From NCBI RefSeq assembly GCF_001713395.1, contig NZ_CP016452.1, positions 1,178,001 to 1,242,000 on the forward strand: a stretch of DNA of 64,000 bases. The letters run 5' to 3'. Both the position numbers and the translations under genes were made by a program. A model generated the notes under the pieces. The model was given only the letters and a program-made list of their open reading frames with translations, ran no database searches and had not been told where the DNA came from. The stretch comes from Sinorhizobium sp. RAC02 (lineage in GTDB: Bacteria > Pseudomonadota > Alphaproteobacteria > Rhizobiales > Rhizobiaceae). Below, one piece after another: positions 35,862-47,181 of the stretch; the first letter of the stretch is position 1; each line of letters starts with the position of its first letter.

Positions 35862-36497
35862 CTAGACTGTCTCCGAGATTGCCCTCACGAGCGCTTTTGC
35901 AGAGACGGCGCCGGGGTCGAGGTGGCCGAGGGAGCGTTCCCGCAGGCGGGCGGCGCGGCCCTTGGCGGCAACCATCGTGGCAGTCGCGGCCGCTCCGTTG
36001 TCGGCTGCGGCCGTAACGGCGGCCCAGAATTCTTGTTTCGACCGGCCTTCGGCAACCGCCGTGGTGGCGGCTTCTGCGGCGGGCAGCCAGACGTCGAGCA
36101 TCGTCTTGTCGCCGCGCTGCGCCTTGCCGCGGTCGCGAATGCCCTCGGAAATCGCGACCAGCATATCCCGGCAGGCGACGAGGTCGAGTTCGGAGCGCTC
36201 GGCAAGGACCTGGGCGGCGCGGCGAAAGCCCGTCGAATAGAGGGGTCCCGTCGATGCTCCGACCGCGTCAAGGAAGCCGGTTGCCGCCGTCGACATCACC
36301 TCTGAAAGGCTCGCTGTGCCGAGGTCCAGCTTCGCAAGCGCCGCGTTCACGGCCTTGAAGCCGATCGACATGGTGATGCCGTGATCACCATCGCCGATCG
36401 CGCCGTCGAGTTCGGACAGGCGATCCTTTTCCGTCTCGATCACCTGGGACATTCTCTCGAACATCCTGGCGAGAGCCTGTGCCGCATTTTCCGACAT
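35862..36497 (-). CDS. dhaL: DhaL-type kinase nucleotide-binding subunit (pairs with regulator-DhaK fusion)
   Basis: A 211-residue all-helical DhaL protein. LSELDGAIGDGDHG holds the aspartates that bind Mg-nucleotide, GASTGPLYSTGFRRAA is the conserved lid region and RGDKTMLDVWLPA is the third family motif. With a DhaK partner it phosphorylates dihydroxyacetone or related ketoses. No DhaM is encoded nearby, so ATP exchange as in ATP-dependent two-chain kinases (e.g. L-erythrulose kinases) is more probable than PTS phosphotransfer. GGGGAGGAAGAC precedes the ATG; 28 nt follow the stop of the SorC-DhaK fusion. Last gene of the operon. Confidence 0.9.
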   Translation of the reverse strand: MSENAAQALARMFERMSQVIETEKDRLSELDGAIGDGDHGITMSIGFKAVNAALAKLDLGTASLSEVMSTAATGFLDAVGASTGPLYSTGFRRAAQVLAERSELDLVACRDMLVAISEGIRDRGKAQRGDKTMLDVWLPAAEAATTAVAEGRSKQEFWAAVTAAADNGAAATATMVAAKGRAARLRERSLGHLDPGAVSAKALVRAISETV

Positions 36498-36525: not shown

Positions 36526-38643
36526 TCAGCTCCGAGCCGCCTCGTCCGGTTCAGGTGCGTTGATGGTCAGGATCGCCGACTGGCATGGATAGTGCAGCAG
36601 ATCGGTCAGTTGGCGGTCGAGATGCAGGATCGAGATGGAGGCGCCTGCCATATCCAGCGACGTGCAGTAGTGCCCCACCCAGTTGGCCTCGATTGTGATG
36701 TTCTTGGCGGTAAGCCGCTGCTCCACGCGCCGGAACAGGATGTAGAGCTCCATTAGCGGCGTTGCGCCGAAGGAATTGACCAGCACCGCCACGCGGTCGC
36801 CGGGCTCGGCCTTCATCTCCTTGAAGATGTTGTCCATGATCGTATCGACGATCTCGTCGGCGGTGCGCAGGCGCTCGCGCGACACGCCGGGCTCGCCGTG
36901 GATGCCCATGCCGAGTTCCATGTCATCCGGGCCGATTTCGAAATTGTGCCGCCGTGTCTGCGGCATGGAGCAGGATTCGAGCGCGACGCCGACCGTGAAG
37001 GTGCGGTCGTTGGCCTTGCGGGTGATCGCCTCGCATTCGTCGAGCGTCAGGCCGCGATCACAGGCGGCGCCCGCGACCTTGAAGACGAAGAAATTACCGG
37101 CGACGCCGCGCCGGCCTTCCTTGTCTTCGATCGGCGAAGAAACGATATCGTCGGTGGTGAGGACGGTGCGGACGGGAATGCCCTGTTCCTCGACCAGTTC
37201 GGCTGCCATCTCGAAGTTCATCACGTCGCCGGCATAGTTGCCGTAGACGAAGAGCACCCCGGCGCCACCGGAGGCTGCGACGGCACACTTGGCGATCGGG
37301 TCGGGCGGAGGCGAGGAAAAGATGTTGCCGACGGCCACGGCATCGGCGAGCCCCTTACCGACATAGCCGACAAAACAGGGCTCGTGTCCCGTGCCGCCGC
37401 CGATGACGAGGCCGACCTTGCCGGGGCGGGGGCCGTTGCGTGCGACGAGCGCGCGGCGCGATCCGGTCACGGGTTGCAGATAGAGCTTGTGCGCGGCAAT
37501 CAGGCCGTCGAGCATTTCCTCGACCACGTCGTTGGGATTGTTGAGGAATTTCTTGACATGCGTGCGGTAGGCATTGGCGATGGGCGCGCTTTTCTGCCGT
37601 TGCGAAAGCTTGCTGTCGAGGCTTGTCACACCATCGGCGCGCAGGATGCCGGCGCCCGTCGCCGCATCCGTCACCAGCACGTTGACATAGCCGCCGCGCA
37701 GGGCCGCCAGCAGTGCCGGCACCTTGTCGAAACCGCCGGCGACGGCGACGCGGGTGCCGATGCCGCGCAGCATCTCCAGCGACATGCCGATCGTGCGATC
37801 ATCGAGGGGGCCACCGACCGGGCGGCCGCGCTCATCGATGAAACGTCCGGCCAGCACACCCGCCGCGCCCTTGGCGAGATAGTGCTGCAGCGGCACGGAT
37901 TCGAAGAATCCGCTGGTGTGGATCGTCGAGTTTGGCCGGAGCGACGATATGCCGAAGACAATGCGGTTGGCCCGCGCGAGCGTGTCGAACTGCTCGCGGA
38001 TCAGCGGCTCGGCAAGCAACATGCGCTGCATTTCGGCAGACGCGACGACGGCGGGTGCCGTGATGTTGACGCAGCGCGCCGAGATCGCCCGCGCGACGGC
38101 GGCGGTGGTGAGTTCCGGCGTATAGGCGAAGCTTGCCGTGGTGCCGCCGGTTGCCTGCACGACCGTCACGTCCTGCAAGGCTCCCACTTCCAGATGCTCG
38201 CCGACCGAGAGGATCGTGCGGCCCCAGGCGACGGCGAGCGTGTCGCCGGACTTGATCATCTTGGCAAGCGCCTGCGCGCCCGCCGCACCCAGCCGGCCGA
38301 TCAGTGGCCGCGTGTTGTCGTCATTGGGTACGACCAGGCAATCCGACAGGCCGAAATGGCGCTTCAGTTCCTGCGCGATGGTGAGCGATGCAAGCCGCGC
38401 GGGCTCGATGGAGATGTTGACGATGCCTTTTTCGCGAGCGTCGGCGAGGTAGCTGTTGACGGTGGCGCGCGACACACCCATCGCCTCGGCGATCTCGCCC
38501 TGCGTCATGCCGTCTTCGTAGTAGAGCCAGCAGGCCCAGACATAGGGGTCGTCGCCATAGCGCAGCGGTATCGAATCCACGCCTTCCGGCCCGTTCGCCC
38601 GGCCGATGCCGCCTTTGCGCGGCGAGGAAGTCTTGATTGCCAT
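36526..38643 (-). CDS. SorC-type transcriptional regulator fused to a DhaK kinase domain
   Basis: A 705-residue polypeptide with two full modules. Residues 30-75 hold a SorC/DeoR-like helix-turn-helix (DGMTQGEIAEAMGVSRATVN), and 85-340 a SorC sugar-binding domain with GDTLAVAWGRT and VLAGRFIDERG. From about 363 to 695 it is a complete DhaK: VGLVIGGGTGHEPCF, FVYGNYAGDVMNFEMA, and GMGIHGEPG in which His582 matches the histidine that forms the hemiaminal with dihydroxyacetone in DhaK. The joint is in one frame with no overlap or slip signal. Separate regulators and kinases are the norm. I infer a regulator that may sense or phosphorylate the same ketose. The ATG of MAIKTSSPRK is preceded by a distant AAGGGGA, so translation may be weak. 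Confidence 0.9.
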   Translation of the reverse strand: MAIKTSSPRKGGIGRANGPEGVDSIPLRYGDDPYVWACWLYYEDGMTQGEIAEAMGVSRATVNSYLADAREKGIVNISIEPARLASLTIAQELKRHFGLSDCLVVPNDDNTRPLIGRLGAAGAQALAKMIKSGDTLAVAWGRTILSVGEHLEVGALQDVTVVQATGGTTASFAYTPELTTAAVARAISARCVNITAPAVVASAEMQRMLLAEPLIREQFDTLARANRIVFGISSLRPNSTIHTSGFFESVPLQHYLAKGAAGVLAGRFIDERGRPVGGPLDDRTIGMSLEMLRGIGTRVAVAGGFDKVPALLAALRGGYVNVLVTDAATGAGILRADGVTSLDSKLSQRQKSAPIANAYRTHVKKFLNNPNDVVEEMLDGLIAAHKLYLQPVTGSRRALVARNGPRPGKVGLVIGGGTGHEPCFVGYVGKGLADAVAVGNIFSSPPPDPIAKCAVAASGGAGVLFVYGNYAGDVMNFEMAAELVEEQGIPVRTVLTTDDIVSSPIEDKEGRRGVAGNFFVFKVAGAACDRGLTLDECEAITRKANDRTFTVGVALESCSMPQTRRHNFEIGPDDMELGMGIHGEPGVSRERLRTADEIVDTIMDNIFKEMKAEPGDRVAVLVNSFGATPLMELYILFRRVEQRLTAKNITIEANWVGHYCTSLDMAGASISILHLDRQLTDLLHYPCQSAILTINAPEPDEAARS

Positions 38644-38793: not shown

Positions 38794-39435
38794 TCAGGTC
38801 AGCCGCGCGCGCGCGCCGTCGGACAATTCCTTGAGAATGATGGCGCAGGAGGTTGCTCCAGCATCCAGCACGCCGAGCGACCGTTCGCCGAGGCGGCTGG
38901 CGCGGCCGATTTTTGCGACCAGATCGATCGTCGAGTCGCGGCCGGCTTCGGCGGCGGCAACCAGGGCTTCCAGCGCGTCGCCGAACGATTTGCCTTCGGC
39001 CGTGGCCTTGTCGAACGCCTCGACGGCCGGAACGAGCGTGTCGATCAGCGTCTTGTCGCCGACCTTGGCGGAGCCGATCGACTGGATGCCGGCCAGGCCC
39101 GCATGCAGCATCTTGCTGTAGGCCGCGGCGTCGATCTTTTCGACACCCTCGATCGTCTCGGCAAATTCGGTGAACATCACGCCGTAGAGCGGGCCCATCG
39201 AGCCGCCGATCTCCGTCATCAGCACGGTGCCGAGCGTATCGAGGGATTCGGCGAGCGGGGCGTTTTTACCCTTTAGCCGTTCCGCCGCCATGGCAAAACC
39301 CTTGGCCATGTTCACGCCGTGATCGCCATCGCCGATCTTGCCGTCGATCTCGCTGAGATAGGCGCGGTTCTCGACGATCCGCTCTGCCATCGACAGAACG
39401 ATGGCGCCGGAGGATGCGTTGTCGAAAGTCTGCAT
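38794..39435 (-). CDS. dhaL: DhaL-type kinase nucleotide-binding subunit
   Basis: A 213-residue DhaL protein with LSEIDGKIGDGDHGVNMAKGF (metal-nucleotide aspartates), GGSMGPLYGVMF and KVGDKTLIDTLVPA. It is only moderately similar to the DhaL encoded 2.3 kb downstream, so the two are not a recent duplication. It follows dhaK by 15 nt with GAGGACGACC before its ATG and should form the first DhaK-DhaL kinase with it. Confidence 0.9.
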   Translation of the reverse strand: MQTFDNASSGAIVLSMAERIVENRAYLSEIDGKIGDGDHGVNMAKGFAMAAERLKGKNAPLAESLDTLGTVLMTEIGGSMGPLYGVMFTEFAETIEGVEKIDAAAYSKMLHAGLAGIQSIGSAKVGDKTLIDTLVPAVEAFDKATAEGKSFGDALEALVAAAEAGRDSTIDLVAKIGRASRLGERSLGVLDAGATSCAIILKELSDGARARLT

Positions 39436-39450: not shown

Positions 39451-40443
39451 TTACAGGATGATCGTGCACCGCGTCTCGACATCGAGCAGCGGCTTGAGGT
39501 CTTCGTCGAGCGCCATGACGGTGAGCGTCGCGCCGACCATTTCCAGCGAGGTGAAGTAGTTGCCGATCCAGGTCTTGACGATCTTCAGGCCGCGGGCCGA
39601 AATCTCGCTCTCGATCGTGTCGTTGAGGATGTAGAGTTCGTTGAGCGGCGTGGCGCCGAGGCCCGAGACAAGCACGGCGACTTCGGTGCCCTGCGGCAGG
39701 TTATGATCGTCGAGCACGATCTTCACCATGTCCTTGGCGACCTCGTCTGCCGTCTTCAGTGCTTCGACACGAACGCCCGGTTCGCCATGGTGGCCGATGC
39801 CGACTTCCATCGTGCCGGGCTCGATCTGGAAGTTCGGATGGCCGACGGCCGGCAGCGTGCAGGGGCCGAGGCCGACGCCGATCGAGCGGCAGTTGTCGAT
39901 TGCCTTCTGGGCGGTGGCGCGCACCTCCTCGAGGCTGGCGCCGGTCGCGGCCTTCGCGCCGCCCATCTTCCACATGAAGATTTCACCGGCAACGCCACGG
40001 CGTTTCTCGCGCTCTTCGGGCGGGGCGGAGCAGACGTCGTCGTTGGCGACAACAGTTGCCACGTCGATGCCGGCCTTGGCGGCGAGCTTCATCGCCATCT
40101 TCACGTTCATGTTGTCGCCGGCATAGTTGCCGTAGAGCACAACGACGCCCTTGCCGCCGTTGGCTTCGCGGATGGCATCGTAGAAGCTCTTGGCTGTCGG
40201 CGAAGAGAAGAGTTCACCGACGGCGACCGCATCGAGCATGTTCTTGCCCGTATAGCCGATGAAGGCCGGCTCGTGTCCGGAGCCGCCGCCGGTCACCACG
40301 CCGACCTTGCCGGCAAAGGGGGCATCCTTGGCGACGATGACGCGCGGGTTTTCCGCGACGCGCACGATGTCCGAATGCGCCTTCACGAACCCCTTGACGG
40401 TATCCTCGACCACCAGGTCCGGATCGTTGATGAAACGCTGCAT
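39451..40443 (-). CDS. dhaK: DhaK-type ketose kinase substrate-binding subunit
   Basis: A 330-residue DhaK. GVVTGGGSGHEPAFIGY (49-64), VVLYGNYAGDNMN (101-113) and GIGHHGEPG (215-223) are the family motifs; His219 corresponds to the covalent substrate histidine of E. coli DhaK. The stand-alone protein ends directly after the K domain, so its phosphate donor is bound by the DhaL encoded next. The gene follows an SDR dehydrogenase, and I infer phosphorylation of the ketose product of that enzyme, for example erythrulose or dihydroxyacetone. The isomerases needed afterwards are not in the window. Confidence 0.92.
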   Translation of the reverse strand: MQRFINDPDLVVEDTVKGFVKAHSDIVRVAENPRVIVAKDAPFAGKVGVVTGGGSGHEPAFIGYTGKNMLDAVAVGELFSSPTAKSFYDAIREANGGKGVVVLYGNYAGDNMNVKMAMKLAAKAGIDVATVVANDDVCSAPPEEREKRRGVAGEIFMWKMGGAKAATGASLEEVRATAQKAIDNCRSIGVGLGPCTLPAVGHPNFQIEPGTMEVGIGHHGEPGVRVEALKTADEVAKDMVKIVLDDHNLPQGTEVAVLVSGLGATPLNELYILNDTIESEISARGLKIVKTWIGNYFTSLEMVGATLTVMALDEDLKPLLDVETRCTIIL

Positions 40444-40478: not shown

Positions 40479-41252
40479 TCAAAGAATGGTGTAACCACCG
40501 TCGATCAGAAGATCGGCGCCGTTGATCATGTCGGCACCCGGCGAGGCCAGGAACACCGCGGCGGCGGCGATCTCTTCCGGGAAGGCGAAACGGCCGGTCG
40601 GGATGCGCTTCTTGGCGTTTTCACCCTTTTCGCCGGCCCAGGCCGCCTTGCCGAGCTCCGTCAGCACGATGGTGGGGGAAATGGTGTTGACCGTGATGCC
40701 GTGTTTGCCCCATTCGGCGGCAAAGGTCTTGGACATGCCGATGACACCGAACTTGGACGCGCAATAGGCGACATGCTCTTCGATCGCGACGGAACCGGCC
40801 TGCGAGGCTAGATTGACGATCTTGCCGCCTTTTCCGGCGGCAATCATCTTGCGGCCGACAGCCTGCGTGATGAGGAAGCTGCCCTTCAGGTTGATGTCGA
40901 TCGTCCTGTCCCACTGGATGAGTGTAAGGTCTTCAGCCGGCGCAAGTGCTACGATGCCGGCGCTGTTGACCGCAATGTCGATACCGCCGAAGGCGGCGAC
41001 CACGTCATCGACCGCTTTCTGCACGGACGCGGCATCCGCCACGTCGCAAACGAAAGGCCTTGCCGAGCCACCGAGTTCATCCGCCTTCGCCTTGGCGATG
41101 TCGGCATTGATGTCGAGCACGGCGATCTTCGCACCCTTCGATGCAAAGGCAGCGGCGATGGCCGCGCCGATGCCGGAAGCGCCGCCGGTGACGAGCGCGA
41201 CCTTGCCGTCGAGCGGGAAGTTGAGGTCGATATGCGGAGGGGTATCGGTCAT
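40479..41252 (-). CDS. Short-chain polyol dehydrogenase (SDR)
   Basis: A 257-residue classical SDR: TGGASGIG at 22-29, NSAG at the end of strand 4 and YCASK active site. An Asp at the end of strand 2 (AVLDIN) indicates NAD. The N-terminal extension before the core (MTDTPPHIDLNFPLDGKVALVTG) resembles D-threitol/galactitol-type polyol dehydrogenases, which in mycobacteria are encoded beside erythrulose (DhaK-type) kinases. It likely oxidises the imported polyol to a ketose. It precedes dhaK by 35 nt. Confidence 0.87.
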   Translation of the reverse strand: MTDTPPHIDLNFPLDGKVALVTGGASGIGAAIAAAFASKGAKIAVLDINADIAKAKADELGGSARPFVCDVADAASVQKAVDDVVAAFGGIDIAVNSAGIVALAPAEDLTLIQWDRTIDINLKGSFLITQAVGRKMIAAGKGGKIVNLASQAGSVAIEEHVAYCASKFGVIGMSKTFAAEWGKHGITVNTISPTIVLTELGKAAWAGEKGENAKKRIPTGRFAFPEEIAAAAVFLASPGADMINGADLLIDGGYTIL

Positions 41253-41280
41253 CGGTCTGGCTTTCAGCGATTGGGTGGAA

Positions 41281-41301
41281 CGGGGCGGCGTCGCCGCCCC
41301 G
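41281..41301. other. Hairpin between the binding-protein and dehydrogenase genes
   Basis: CGGGGCGG and CCGCCCCG pair perfectly around a 5-nt loop, 11 nt beyond the binding-protein stop. No T-run. Such hairpins after binding-protein genes commonly protect the upstream mRNA and lower downstream expression. Confidence 0.5.
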
Positions 41302-41312
41302 CATGTCATTCG

Positions 41313-42299
41313 TTACTTGCGCAGTTCCAGGAGCTTATCGACATTTTCGGTCGTGACCGGCGTCCACGGAACATTGTATTCCTTGTCCTTGCCGTCGTTG
41401 AACGCCATGTCGGGATACTGCGCCCAGATGTCCGACTGCGGCTTGTAGTCACCCTTTTTAGCATGGAGGATCGCGAGGTCGAGGGCACCCTGCGCCTGGG
41501 CACGGGCGTCCTGCAGGATCGAGGTCATCGTGCCTTCCTTGACGGCGCTGAGTGCGTCCGTGATGCCATCGATACCGGCGATGGCGAAGTCTTCAGGCTT
41601 GAGGCCGGCGGCCTTGATCGCCTCGATCGCGCCGAGCGCCATCTCGTCGTTCTGGCCGATGACGCCGTTGATCTGGCCGGAATGCGAGGTCAACCAGTTT
41701 TCCATCAGCGTCTGGGCTTCGGCACGCGACCAGTTGGCCGTCTGCTGTTCCAGAACCTTGACGTCCGGGCACTCGGCAAGCGCCTTCTTGTTGCCTTCAA
41801 GGCGGGAGATCTGCGCCGACTGGCCGATCGGGCCTTCGATGATGACGACGTTGCCCTTGCAGCCGATCTTGTCGAGCACGGTCTTGGCTTCCATGTAGCC
41901 GGAGATCGTATCGTCGGAGCCGACATAGGCGGTGAGCAGGTCGGAGTTTACGCGGGTGTTGGAGCCGACGACCGGAATGCCGGCGTCATGGGCGGCCTGC
42001 ACGGCGGTGGCGCCGGCTTCGATGTCGATCGGCACGAATATGATCGCGTTGAATTTTTGGGTGATCATCGTGTTGAACTGTTCCTGCTGGACCAGCGCGT
42101 CGTAGCGGCCGTCGAAGACCGTCAGTTCGACTTCGCCGTTCTTCACGGCCGGATGTTCTTCGAGGGCGGCGGACCAGATCTGCATGAATTCCGCATTCAG
42201 ACCATAGGGGGCCGCGCCGATCTTCAGCTTTTCCTGGGCCATGGCGGACGAGGCGAGCAGCACCGTCGCAGAGGCAAGGGCGATCATCAGTTTCTTCAT
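41313..42299 (-). CDS. Periplasmic sugar/polyol-binding protein (RbsB-like)
   Basis: A 328-residue exported protein: signal peptide to about residue 21 (SSAMAQ), mature fold of the Peripla_BP_4 type with KIGAAPYGLNAEF, a hinge region DGRYDALVQQEQFN and IFVPIDIEAGATAVQAAHDAGIPVV. It captures substrate for the RbsC/RbsA-like pair encoded upstream. In this operon the binding-protein gene comes third rather than first. AAAGGAGGAGAATGTC before the ATG is a very strong ribosome site, which suits the stoichiometric excess such proteins need. Confidence 0.9.
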   Translation of the reverse strand: MKKLMIALASATVLLASSAMAQEKLKIGAAPYGLNAEFMQIWSAALEEHPAVKNGEVELTVFDGRYDALVQQEQFNTMITQKFNAIIFVPIDIEAGATAVQAAHDAGIPVVGSNTRVNSDLLTAYVGSDDTISGYMEAKTVLDKIGCKGNVVIIEGPIGQSAQISRLEGNKKALAECPDVKVLEQQTANWSRAEAQTLMENWLTSHSGQINGVIGQNDEMALGAIEAIKAAGLKPEDFAIAGIDGITDALSAVKEGTMTSILQDARAQAQGALDLAILHAKKGDYKPQSDIWAQYPDMAFNDGKDKEYNVPWTPVTTENVDKLLELRK

Positions 42300-42381: not shown

Positions 42382-43404
42382 TCAGGCGCCCTGATTGCGT
42401 TTCTGGTCGAGCATCACGGCGCCGACGATGAGCGCGCCCTTGAGGACCTGCTGGTAGTAGGATTGGATCCCCATCAGATCGAGGCCGTTGTTCATGACGC
42501 CGATGATGAGGGCGCCGATGAGGGTGCCGGTTACCCGGCCGACGCCGCCCGACAGGCTGGTGCCACCGATCACGACCGCTGCGATGGCGTCGAGTTCGTA
42601 GGCGATGCCGGCCTGTGGCAGGGCGGAGCCCGTTCGCGCCGAGAGGATCATGCCGGCGAGGCCGGAGAGTGCGCCCGAGATCACATAAACGAGGAAGCGG
42701 ATGCGCGTGACGTTGAGGCCGGAGGTCTTGGCGGCATGCGGGTTGCCGCCGACGGCGTAGATGTAGCGGCCGAAGCGCGTGCGGGTCAGCACCCACCAGG
42801 AGACCAGGAAGACGACAGCGAGCAGGATGACCGGCATCGGAATGCCGAGGATGTTACCGGTGCCGATCCAGCGGAATTCCGGTGTCAGCGCCGGGACCGG
42901 CCGCCCGCCGCCATAGATGAGTGTCGCGCCGCGCGCCGCCGACAACATGCCGAGCGTCGCGACAAAGGCTGGCACGGAGAAGCGCGAGACGATGAAGCCG
43001 ACCAGCGCACCGCAGCAGACGCCGACGAGGATGCCGACCGCAAGCGCCACGACCATCGGGTAGGGCGCGCCGGCAATGCCGGCCGTGGCCGAGCTGGTGA
43101 CGAAGCTGGCGCTGACCATGCCGGCGAGCGCCACGACCGAGCCGACCGAAAGGTCGATGCCGCGGGTCAGGATGACGAAGGTCATGCCGATCGCGAGAAC
43201 GCCGTTGATCGACGTCTGGAGCAGCACGTTGGAGATGTTGCCCGGCGTCAGGAAGAACTCGTTCGACAGGGCAAGAACGGCGACCAGCAGCAGGAAGGCG
43301 AGAAAGATGCCATATTCCTGCAGGATCAGCCGGCGGCGATCGGCGTTCAGCCAGGTGCTGGAGGTCTTGTTCTCTAAGCTGGACACGGTGTCACCTCTTG
43401 CCAT
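42382..43404 (-). CDS. Sugar/polyol ABC transporter permease (RbsC-like)
   Basis: A 340-residue inner-membrane permease of the BPD_transp_2 family with about ten helices. NISNVLLQTSINGVLAIGMTFVILTRGIDLSVGS is the family signature in the N-terminal half (given here only as motif name), and the coupling region GGNPHAAKTSGLNVTR and GGTSLSGGVGRVTGT are present. It would form a homodimer with the tandem ATPase encoded 38 nt upstream. Confidence 0.92.
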   Translation of the reverse strand: MARGDTVSSLENKTSSTWLNADRRRLILQEYGIFLAFLLLVAVLALSNEFFLTPGNISNVLLQTSINGVLAIGMTFVILTRGIDLSVGSVVALAGMVSASFVTSSATAGIAGAPYPMVVALAVGILVGVCCGALVGFIVSRFSVPAFVATLGMLSAARGATLIYGGGRPVPALTPEFRWIGTGNILGIPMPVILLAVVFLVSWWVLTRTRFGRYIYAVGGNPHAAKTSGLNVTRIRFLVYVISGALSGLAGMILSARTGSALPQAGIAYELDAIAAVVIGGTSLSGGVGRVTGTLIGALIIGVMNNGLDLMGIQSYYQQVLKGALIVGAVMLDQKRNQGA

Positions 43405-43442: not shown

Positions 43443-44921
43443 TCAGGTCGACAGGTGCACAAGCGACTGGGCGTCGGCGTCCTTCCGGCTGTAGACACCG
43501 GCGGAGCGGCCCTGTCGCATGACGAGGATGCGGTCGGACATGCCCAGGATTTCGTCGATTTCGGAGGAGATCATCACGACCGTGCCGCCTTCGGCGGCGA
43601 AGTCGCAGATGATGCGGTAAATCTCGCGCTTGGCGCCGACATCGACGCCGCGCGTCGGCTCGTCGAGCAGCAGGACGCGGGGTTCGCGCAAAAACCATTT
43701 GCCCAGCACGACCTTCTGCTGGTTGCCGCCGGAAAGGCCGGAGACCGGCATCGTGTCGCGTGCGGCCTTGATGCCGAAGCGCGTGATCATGTCCGCGGCG
43801 GAGGACTGTTCGCGCCGGCGCTGCATGACGAAGGCCGGGCTCATCTCCGGCAGGCTGGCCAGGCAGATGTTGTTGCGAACGCTGTCCGTCAGGTTGAGGC
43901 CGGTGAGCTTGCGATCTTCCGTCACGAAGGCCATGCCCTCGGCCATCGCGTCGGATGGCTGGCGGATGGCGACCGGCTGGCCGTCGAGGCGGATGTCGCC
44001 GGCAGACGCGCGATCCATGCCGAACAGGCAGTTGAAGATTTCCGTGCGGCCGGAGCCCATCAGGCCGTAGATGCCGAAGATCTCGCCCTTGTGGGCGGTG
44101 AAGGAGATGTCCTCGATCTTGCCGGGCGCGGATAGGCCGGTGACTTCGAGCCCCGCAATCGCCGTCGGCGTGTTCGTCTTGATGTATTCCTCGCCAAGCT
44201 CGCGCCCGACGATCATGCGGATGAGGCCGGGCCGGTCGATATCGGCAAGCTTGCCGTCGCCGACGAAGCCGCCATCGCGGAACACCGTGTAGCTGTCGGC
44301 GATCTGGAAGATTTCCGACAGCCTGTGCGAGACGTAGACGATGCCCTTGCCATCTGCCTTCAGGCGTTTGATCGCCTGGAAAAGGTGCTGGGCCTCCTTC
44401 TCGCCGATCGCCGAGGTCGGCTCATCCATGAAGATAACGTCCGCATCATGGCTCAGCGCCTTGGCGATCTCGACGAGCTGCATCTGCGCGACCGAGAGGT
44501 TCATCATGTATTGGGTCGCGGAAATGTTGAACTCGAGACGATCGAGCAGCGCCTGCGCGTTGCGGTTCATCGTCTTGAAGTCGATGCCGCCGAAGCGGGC
44601 TGAGGGTTCGCGGCCGAGATAGATGTTCTCCGCCACCGTCATGTGCGGGACCGGGCTCAGTTCCTGCTCGATGATGGCGATACCGGAGGCGAGGGCTTCG
44701 GCCGGGCTGTTGAATTCGACCGGCCTGCCGCGATGCAGGATCGTGCCGCCGTCGCGTTTGTGGATGCCCATGAGGATCGAGAGGAACGTGGACTTGCCGG
44801 CGCCATTGCCGCCGCAAAGTGCATGCACCGAGCCGACTTCCAGCGCAAAACGGCCGTCGCGAAGGGCTGCGACGCCGCCGAAGGACTTTTTCAGTTCTTC
44901 CACTTTCAACAGTGGCTGCAT
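43443..44921 (-). CDS. Sugar/polyol ABC transporter tandem ATPase (RbsA-like)
   Basis: A 492-residue protein with two ATP-binding domains as in RbsA/MglA. Domain 1 has GGNGAGKST and LSVAQMQLVEIAKAL in place of a canonical LSGGQ; domain 2 has the degenerate Walker A GLMGSGRTE normal for this family and the intact signature LSGGNQQKVVLGKW followed by LLLDEPTRGVD. GGGAGGAATGC sets the ATG of MQPLLKVEEL; the frame extends 105 nt further into the promoter. First gene of the polyol operon. Confidence 0.92.
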   Translation of the reverse strand: MQPLLKVEELKKSFGGVAALRDGRFALEVGSVHALCGGNGAGKSTFLSILMGIHKRDGGTILHRGRPVEFNSPAEALASGIAIIEQELSPVPHMTVAENIYLGREPSARFGGIDFKTMNRNAQALLDRLEFNISATQYMMNLSVAQMQLVEIAKALSHDADVIFMDEPTSAIGEKEAQHLFQAIKRLKADGKGIVYVSHRLSEIFQIADSYTVFRDGGFVGDGKLADIDRPGLIRMIVGRELGEEYIKTNTPTAIAGLEVTGLSAPGKIEDISFTAHKGEIFGIYGLMGSGRTEIFNCLFGMDRASAGDIRLDGQPVAIRQPSDAMAEGMAFVTEDRKLTGLNLTDSVRNNICLASLPEMSPAFVMQRRREQSSAADMITRFGIKAARDTMPVSGLSGGNQQKVVLGKWFLREPRVLLLDEPTRGVDVGAKREIYRIICDFAAEGGTVVMISSEIDEILGMSDRILVMRQGRSAGVYSRKDADAQSLVHLST

Positions 44922-44966
44922 GCATTCCTCCCGGCATTCAAGGGATGCTCCCCATCCCTTGTTTAC

Positions 44967-44996
44967 AAAATACACATCGTAATCGACATATGTCAA
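44967..44996 (-). promoter_or_regulatory. Promoter of the polyol/dha operon with overlapping palindrome
   Basis: On the minus strand TTGACA (-35) and TATTTT (-10) are 18 nt apart, ending about 46 nt before the first gene. The -35 is part of the perfect palindrome GACATATGTC (44985-44994), well placed for a repressor such as the SorC-type fusion protein of this operon. Confidence 0.55.
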
Positions 44997-45023
44997 CATG
45001 ATGAATCGACAAACGTTGAAATG

Positions 45024-45036
45024 CAAATGTCATTTG
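45024..45036. promoter_or_regulatory. Second palindrome upstream of the polyol operon
   Basis: CAAATGTCATTTG is a perfect 6-bp inverted repeat with one central base, about 30 bp upstream of the -35 element. The outer sequences TTACAAAAT (44963-44971) and ATTTGTAAG (45032-45040) are also complementary over most positions, so the site may form a looped operator. The rest of the interval up to 45278 holds no feature I recognise. Confidence 0.45.
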
Positions 45037-45278
45037 TAAGGTTTGTGCCGCACCGACATGAGATCAAGCAGCTCTATGGATGACGGTAATGTCTTGGGAT
45101 GGCGCGCTTTTTCGGCGAAAGACGGCGTCGCTTTCACGGTCCGTCATGATGCGAAACAACCGGATATTTCTCGATGCACGCGGTTTCCGCCTCCGGCAAG
45201 ATCGATGTACCCTCGGGCGTTGAAGGAGCGGCCTTGACCGGAGAATGGTCCCGTGGCCTATGCGCAAACTGGTCTCAC

Positions 45279-45987: not shown

Positions 45988-47181
45988 TCAATCGATCGAT
46001 GGCAGATCGGCGGCCGGTACGCCGTCGCGGACAAGGATGCGGCCGCGACGGATGACGGTGCGCGCCTGGGGCGTCAACGCCACGGCCTCGGCAAGCGTGC
46101 GTGCCGGCACCAGCACGAGATCGCCGAAATCCCCTTCGGACAATCCGTAACCGGAAAGGCCGATGCCTTCCGCGCCGCCGAAGGTGCAGATACGCGCGGT
46201 CTCAGCAAGATCCGCATCGTTGGTCATGCCGTTGCGTTGCGCCAGATATTTTGCCCGCTCCAGCATGTCGCCATTGCCCCAAGGCTCCCATGTGCCCTGG
46301 ATGCCATCCGAGCCGGAAGAAGCCACAAGGCCACTTTGTCGCATCAGGCGCAACGGCAGGGCAGGGGCAGCGGGGCTACCGACCGTCATCACCGCGATCT
46401 GCTCCGCCGCAAGTGCTGATATCAGCGTCTGCTGCCGGGTAGAATCCAGCATGCCGAGGCAATATGCGTGGCTCACCATCACGCGGCCCTGCATCGAGAG
46501 CGCCCGGGTGCGCTCGATGATGAGGTCCAGGCAGAAGGCGCCGAGCTCTCCAAGCTCGTGCAGATGGATGTCGATGGGTTTCCCGTAACGCTCCGCCAGC
46601 GCGAAAATGGCGTCGAGATGCTGGACGGGGTCGCGCTCGATGGTGGCGGGGTCGATGCCGCCGACGATGTCGGCGCCGGCCCGCATGGCGGCATCCATCA
46701 GTTCAAGCGTGCCTGCGCGCGGCAGCATGCCGCTCTGCGGGAAGGCAACGATCTGTATATCGACGAGGTCGCGCAGCGCCTCGCGGGTTTCAAGCACGCC
46801 TTCAATATTGGCGATGCCGATTTCCGTGTCGACGTCGACATGGCTGCGAATGTGGAGGACGCCGTATTTCAGCGTCTGCAGGGCCTGCCGGGCGGATTGG
46901 CGGCGCGCGTCGATGCCGAGGTCACGCTTTGCCTTGCGATCGGCGAGAATGCGGTCGCTGCGATTGGGGCCGACGCGGTTCTCGAACCAGTCCATGCCGA
47001 TCAGCGTCTTGTCGAGATGGGTGTGCGCCTCCACGAAGCCGGGCAGCGCGATGTACCCCGTTGCGTCGAATTCCCGCGCCGGCCGCGCACCGCCGGCGCT
47101 GAAGCGGCCGTTGCGGATGATGAGGTCTACCGGTTCCCCGCCCATGGGTCGCGCATTGCGGATGATGATATCGGCGGTCAT
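45988..47181 (-). CDS. Cytosine deaminase-like amidohydrolase
   Basis: A 397-residue metal-dependent amidohydrolase. The beta-sandwich N-terminus is followed by FVEAHTHLDKTLIG with metal ligands His53 and His55, HIRSHVDVD, IDIHLHELGE, MVSHAYCLG and the Asp-containing ASGSDGIQ. The HTHLDK motif is typical of CodA/AtzC-type deaminases acting on nucleobases or s-triazines. It would remove an amino or alkylamino group from a ring substrate. Its ATG overlaps the stop of the upstream amidohydrolase gene by 4 nt. Confidence 0.87.
   Translation of the reverse strand: MTADIIIRNARPMGGEPVDLIIRNGRFSAGGARPAREFDATGYIALPGFVEAHTHLDKTLIGMDWFENRVGPNRSDRILADRKAKRDLGIDARRQSARQALQTLKYGVLHIRSHVDVDTEIGIANIEGVLETREALRDLVDIQIVAFPQSGMLPRAGTLELMDAAMRAGADIVGGIDPATIERDPVQHLDAIFALAERYGKPIDIHLHELGELGAFCLDLIIERTRALSMQGRVMVSHAYCLGMLDSTRQQTLISALAAEQIAVMTVGSPAAPALPLRLMRQSGLVASSGSDGIQGTWEPWGNGDMLERAKYLAQRNGMTNDADLAETARICTFGGAEGIGLSGYGLSEGDFGDLVLVPARTLAEAVALTPQARTVIRRGRILVRDGVPAADLPSID

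Follow-up and report, generated by a model that had tools for sequence, protein, structure and literature searches.

A SorC-type regulator fused to the kinase subunit DhaK in Sinorhizobium sp. RAC02 and its relatives, with a predicted operator and a constant DhaL partner

In a 64,000-nucleotide stretch of the Sinorhizobium sp. RAC02 genome (assembly GCF_001713395.1, contig NZ_CP016452.1, positions 1,178,001 to 1,242,000 of the forward strand; here called the window), a minus-strand gene at 36526..38643 encodes a 705-amino-acid protein that joins a SorC-type transcriptional regulator to DhaK, a dihydroxyacetone kinase subunit. Sequence comparisons confirmed that this fusion, with an intact helix-turn-helix (HTH) and an intact kinase site, is real. 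The explanation that we hold to be somewhat better than an even bet is that the protein is a conserved, autoregulated repressor-kinase of a tetrulose (erythrulose-type) or dihydroxyacetone pathway, which would make the sugar phosphate that it senses.

The frame runs from an ATG at 38643 to a stop ending at 36526 and contains no internal stop. An HTH (about residues 33 to 76) and a sugar-binding domain (86 to 334) are followed by a poorly predicted linker (343 to 364) and the DhaK domain (363 to 695). Pfam HTH models matched at about residues 40 to 76 and the PF04198 sugar-binding model at 86 to 334 (203 bits; cutoff, 27), the arrangement of SorC/DeoR-type regulators, while PF02733 (Dak1) matched at 380 to 689 with 391 bits. 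An AlphaFold2 model likewise combined a SorC-family fold with a DhaK fold, with low confidence in the linker, which also varies in the alignment of fused proteins. The DhaK part carries the GGGTGHEP, GNYAGD, and HGEPG motifs, and within its Dak1 fold, residues H420, D473, and H582 align with H56, D109, and H218 of Escherichia coli DhaK, giving the His/Asp/His set that we take to be catalytic. All three were invariant across 49 aligned fused proteins, as were HTH residues T47, Q48, A52, G56, S58, and R59, and the same His/Asp/His set occupied the aligned positions in 68 of 68 fused rows (71 rows less two copies of one Shinella record and one duplicate). The original prediction of a single 705-codon frame, in which a SorC-type HTH and sugar-binding domain precede a full DhaK with His582 and its motifs, was thus borne out, on a strand that it had not specified. 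By profile score the fused part is DhaK-like, below the level of the dhaK1 equivalog: it reached 376.6 bits against TIGR02363, whose cutoff of 406.25 the standalone DhaK2 of the same cluster also missed (350.8 bits). At residue 585, directly after the active-site HGE, Arg replaces Pro in 23 of the 68 fused DhaKs and in 0 of 126 rows scored as unfused.

We found SorC and DhaK in one open frame at all 47 loci where the two lie side by side, defined by a SorC match above 45% and a DhaK match above 50% within 400 bp; one Shinella record is counted twice among the 47, and three loci cut by contig ends (L036, L040, and L045; L and G numbers denote loci and genomes) were left out of the count. Both Pfam domains were present in all of the best 120 of 2831 database protein matches. 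When two candidates were scored per genome in a sample of the order, the full fusion occurred in 22 of 397 genomes, RAC02 included, spread over nine family codes, and one additional genome (G690) had its fusion match split over two contigs. Samples of the class (385 genomes) and the phylum (299) contained the fusion only in RAC02 itself. These broader samples miss rare cases, since a scan of genome contigs found the fusion in the Rhodobacterales Salipiger and Tropicimonas (L034 and L043). A copy is also present in Sinorhizobium meliloti 1021 (L080). Gene order varies among these loci: at L020, L023, and L026 an unfused DhaK-DhaL pair and an ATP-binding cassette (ABC) transporter of another kind come before the fusion and its DhaL gene, DhaL2, and at L034 and L043 DhaL2 precedes the fusion.

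The trees are compatible with a single fusion event. The SorC tree placed the 49 fused rows, together with the contig-cut L040 and L045, in one clade (support, 96), with the other standalone SorC proteins outside it, several of them on long branches. In the DhaK tree, the fused rows formed a clade with 16 unfused rows, 13 of them distinct (support, 99), and three fused rows grouped with unfused ones (support, 82). This last grouping suggested two origins of the fusion, but an approximately unbiased test did not reject a single fused DhaK clade (P = 0.50), and one origin is the simplest reading of these sequences, if not a proven one. A likely picture of the layout before fusion is provided by a distant genome, G484 (L164, 7419-9507), where a SorC gene ends in a stop of its own and the DhaK gene that follows in tandem has a separate start codon behind a GGGAGG ribosome site; we read it as prefusion because its SorC falls outside the fused clade. 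Larger fusions were also considered, and a triple one was rejected. Frames of about 940 amino acids in G577 and G465, candidates for a triple SorC-DhaK-DhaL fusion, proved to be a SorC gene and then a separate DhaK-DhaL gene, and a SorC-containing frame of about 1050 amino acids in G589 appears in the list of open reading frames (ORFs) as a 334-amino-acid ORF beside a 684-amino-acid ORF; frames of about 1050 amino acids with SorC also came up in G689 and G609. Separately, G000 holds a paralogue (C1:2472407-2473426; L083 and L090) that matches the fused DhaK at 53%, in a 691-amino-acid frame that also has a DhaL match and lies convergent to a SorC gene. Relatives of these G000 SorC and DhaK-DhaL genes lie in tandem in G577 and G465.

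The fusion is constantly accompanied by a DhaL gene, which lay on the same strand and no more than 400 bp away in all 68 fused rows. The GDGDHG motif was intact in 51 of these DhaL proteins, 15 had IGDADHG, and 2 did not match the search pattern. In the window the partner is DhaL2, a 211-amino-acid ATP-binding kinase subunit (35862..36497, minus strand; TIGR02365, 180.4 bits against a cutoff of 138.3). A search of the RAC02 genome for DhaM, the component whose presence marks a phosphoenolpyruvate (PEP)-dependent DhaKLM system, found none (0/1), with a positive control that matched in 3 of 14 known genomes. Given that no DhaM was found, an ATP-dependent kinase is likelier than a PEP-dependent one. 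The fused kinase is probably active, judging by its intact active-site residues, the adjacent DhaL, and three loci (L039, which shows the fusion with DhaL2, L181, and L182) at which no second DhaK was seen within the stretch examined.

A candidate operator emerged from the alignment of DNA upstream of the transporter operon, where a block, TTGACAtnTGTCGa-N9-GAnnnTTGTca, stands out amid otherwise poorly alignable sequence. The site, TTGACAWWTGTCRA, is a palindrome that often recurs at a distance of 21 bp, and it overlaps a -35-like hexamer. We scored it as TYGACAWWTGTCRA over 14 positions and counted sites with at least 13 matches as good. Such sites were present at 43 of 46 fusion loci, whereas three order-1 resamplings gave 2, 2, and 4. 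The only site in the window to reach this score is the predicted operator TTGACATATGTCGA (44983-44996, minus strand), a conserved palindrome whose TTGACA doubles as the -35-like hexamer; a -10-like TATTTT follows 18 nucleotides on (one found, 0.4 expected in shuffles). Genome-wide (6.63 Mb), the exact form is confined to this position ahead of the operon and four other sites have one mismatch, with none found by a reversed-pattern control. A second, degenerate copy, GTGTATTTTGTAAA, lies in tandem at +21 bp (44962-44975, minus strand) and overlaps the TATTTT. Because of this degeneracy, the exact spaced two-copy pattern had no match in the window. In a hand-picked set of 35 sites from fusion loci, which excluded near-duplicates and took in the rearranged contexts at L184 and L185, the +21-bp offset had a mean score of 10.6, versus 4.46 (standard deviation, 0.93) at other offsets, and the +21 copy scored at least 10/14 at 27 of the 35. 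A spacing of 21 bp is two helical turns and would therefore suit a tetramer on two palindromes. The region at 44960-45040, which had been put forward as the place to look for DNA binding, therefore holds a conserved palindrome that accompanies the fusion in many genomes.

The operator and the fusion travel together in about ten different layouts. Other kinds of transporter follow the site at L020, L023, and L026, DhaK2 follows it in S. meliloti (L080, position 10030), and at L024, L184, and L185 it is found both before a detached fusion and before a detached DhaK2 or transporter unit. No site was found at 20 DhaK loci with no fusion in the stretch (184,572 bases), a control in which ten of the loci are limited to about 4 kb, several overlap or duplicate one another, and four genomes (G000, G466, G465, and G577) carry the fusion elsewhere. 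DhaK loci L047 to L079 also yielded 0 sites in 538 kb, in DNA that is AT-rich (mean G+C content of 0.39 versus 0.62). The unfused SorC gene of G484 has a 13/14 site at its start, overlapping a divergent transporter gene. By co-occurrence only, the fusion is the best candidate for the protein that binds the predicted operator.

We propose that these parts work together as follows. The sequence itself gives a single polypeptide with an intact SorC/DeoR-type DNA- and sugar-binding part, an intact DhaK, and a DhaL gene alongside. On the comparative genomic evidence, the SorC part, probably as a tetramer, would occupy a single TTGACAWWTGTCRA site or a pair spaced by 21 bp across the promoter of the operon for transporter, dehydrogenase, and kinase and would repress that operon, the fusion's own gene included; repression is suggested by the overlap of the predicted operator with the -35-like TTGACA. 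The DhaK part and DhaL2 would then phosphorylate a ketose using ATP. Finally, and this is the weakest step, the SorC part may let go of DNA on binding the ketose phosphate that the fused kinase makes. Sensing and production of the inducer would then be united in a single molecule, a trigger enzyme that senses its own product. Sugar phosphates are frequent ligands of SorC-type regulators, which makes the kinase product the simplest candidate for the sensor's ligand, and structures of LsrR with phospho-autoinducer-2 and of DeoR with its ligand were among the structure matches of the fusion model. DeoR forms a Schiff base through a lysine; this lysine aligns with T165 of the fusion, which disfavors DeoR-like chemistry here. 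A more tentative version of the proposal, in line with the direct gating by kinase state that the original prediction put forward, is that the fused DhaK would itself control release of the operator, through its catalytic turnover or through bound ketose, with DhaL2 exchange as the switch. Such a self-contained sensor, making its own inducer and possibly evolved from adjacent genes as in G484, would report flux rather than concentration.

Several observations weigh against a coupled repressor-kinase acting at this operator. The AlphaFold2 model has a predicted template modeling score of 0.50, so the placement of the domains relative to each other is uninformative, and a second DhaK-DhaL pair, present in most clusters, could carry the flux. 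The window's own second operator copy is poor. The link between site and regulator comes from co-occurrence, and an inherited shared promoter explains many of the 46 loci. Among 14 further loci (L174 to L186 and L165, mostly more divergent or rearranged), only L184 and L185 have a site of at least 13/14; the rest reach 12/14 or less, some with sites away from any gene start. L034, L043, and L039 of the first set reach only 12/14, and the detached fusions at L028 and L030 lack a good site of their own. At L132 to L141, L034, and L043, where no site scores above 12/14, the recognition helix mostly reads SRATV[IV] or similar instead of SRATVN, and a joint change of helix and operator in this clade may possibly explain the missing sites. 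However, a good site is missing at L039, L181, L182, L186, and the short L183 despite their SRATVN helix, whereas standalone SorC genes with SRATVV (L156 to L158) possess one; the correspondence between helix and site is therefore loose. On these sequence comparisons, support for the predicted operator is good within the main, Rhizobiaceae-like group; outside it, the operator is unproven.

It is also conceivable, if rather doubtful, that the fusion serves coexpression only: regulator and kinase would both work without cross talk, their stoichiometry fixed by the fusion, and the SorC part would sense a metabolite produced by any kinase. The low-confidence, variable linker fits such an arrangement, as does the presence in the same operon of DhaK2 and DhaL1, which could make the same class of product. 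Moreover, the separate tandem genes of G484 have a similar site, so regulation does not need the fusion. Set against this, the fused SorC proteins form one clade over nine family codes, which hints at a lasting benefit; the hint is weak, since the fusion may have been lost in the unfused sister DhaK clade. We consider it unlikely that the fused DhaK is mainly a sensor, with ketose binding or DhaL2 exchange setting DNA binding and DhaK2-DhaL1 doing the catalysis. Precedents for such sensors are E. coli DhaK toward DhaR and Lactococcus lactis DhaQ. However, the His/Asp/His site is intact in every fused row with DhaL adjacent, no second DhaK was seen in the stretch examined at L039, L181, and L182, and the fused part scored higher against the DhaK model than against the DhaQ model (376.6 versus 198.1 bits). 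Lastly, the notion that two genes were read as one through an assembly or annotation error, to which separate adjacent genes in G484 and in the less related G577, G465, and G015 might lend color but nothing in the window itself does, is refuted for practical purposes by the many independent genomes that carry the fused frame, complete Shinella and S. meliloti replicons among them, and by the single SorC clade. Separate SorC and DhaK genes at this point in related genomes had been set as a refuting condition of the original prediction, and the 47 of 47 loci with one shared frame decided that check in favor of the fusion.

Clues to the substrate of the proposed repressor-kinase come from neighboring genes. 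The cluster includes a GolD/DthD-family polyol dehydrogenase of the short-chain dehydrogenase/reductase type (40479..41309, minus strand; NF005309, 404.5 bits against a cutoff of 286), the sole match above that cutoff in the whole genome, and this enzyme hints at the candidate substrate class. At L152 in G589, an unfused sister DhaK lies beside genes for D-apionate lactonase (ApnL) and 3-oxo-isoapionate-4-phosphate decarboxylase (OiaX), both over cutoff, and adjoins an OiaK-like kinase gene that is below cutoff; these apionate-pathway neighbors point to erythrulose chemistry. Locus L023 includes a gene for glycerol-3-phosphate dehydrogenase (over cutoff), a gene closest to xylulokinase (below cutoff), and another SorC gene on the opposite strand, a set that we take to be reminiscent of erythritol clusters. 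An L-erythrulose 1-kinase and an erythritol/L-threitol dehydrogenase are described in PMC10733421.

The joining of SorC and DhaK is not new as an architecture, as NCBI records already label it: the product name "bifunctional sugar-binding transcriptional regulator/dihydroxyacetone kinase subunit DhaK" is borne by Shinella, Sinorhizobium, Ensifer, Rhizobium, Mesorhizobium, and Brucella-group proteins. An NCBIfam search matched no model spanning both parts, and a literature search, with subscription papers mostly outside its scope, had no functional study of the fusion among the matches listed. The original prediction had supposed that such a protein could report kinase state on DNA and that a gate of this kind would be a new type of metabolic feedback. 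The fusion itself stood; its architecture already bears the NCBI name, and E. coli, where DhaK acts on a separate DhaR (complex 4lrx, among our structure matches), offers a two-protein precedent. The present analysis adds the predicted operator, the prefusion layout of G484, and the constant DhaL partner. Regulators such as LsrR, Bacillus subtilis DeoR, Klebsiella pneumoniae SorC, and CggR have no enzyme domain, whereas this one has DhaK. NadR and PutA are trigger enzymes or regulator-enzyme fusions, and the protein resembles them in placing a pathway enzyme and its transcriptional control in one polypeptide, although the domain families differ and the coupling here is hypothetical. In E. coli, according to PMC6643234, which cites the study of DhaK binding to DhaR, dhaKLM is controlled by the separate regulator DhaR, activated by dihydroxyacetone, and the kinase is PEP dependent and works with DhaM; here, in contrast, a SorC-type regulator is covalently joined to the kinase subunit and no DhaM was found in the RAC02 genome. 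Coupling of the two domains, if real, would close a feedback loop within a single protein, with the repressor itself generating its inducer. Direct tests are within reach thanks to the predicted operator, natural sequence variants, the unfused form in G484, and the copy in the laboratory strain S. meliloti 1021, and the protein could find use as a compact switch that responds to tetrulose.

Every gene of the cluster lies on the minus strand, in the order ABC ATPase, permease, binding protein, GolD/DthD-family dehydrogenase, DhaK2, DhaL1, fusion, and DhaL2. Profile matches identified the sugar ABC transporter permease (42382..43404), its substrate-binding protein (41313..42299), and DhaL1 (38794..39435), the partner of DhaK2; DhaK2 itself is an unfused DhaK of 330 amino acids (39451..40443) in a clade separate from the fused DhaK. 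Beyond the cluster, a Na+/H+ antiporter gene (TIGR00831; 34140-35723) follows and a PRK05985-type amidohydrolase gene (45988-47181) precedes it, with no link seen to either. Upstream of the main operator, further half-sites, ACAAATGACA ... GTTTGTCGA, occur at 45000-45055 and also in the Shinella relatives L001 and L003, possibly as an auxiliary site. The sugar ABC transporter ATPase (43443..44921) likely starts at the ATG at 44921, behind GGGAGGA, rather than at a TTG at 45026, in a start region conserved among relatives; the extra N-terminal codons of the 527-amino-acid TTG frame (44921-45026) cover the predicted operator.
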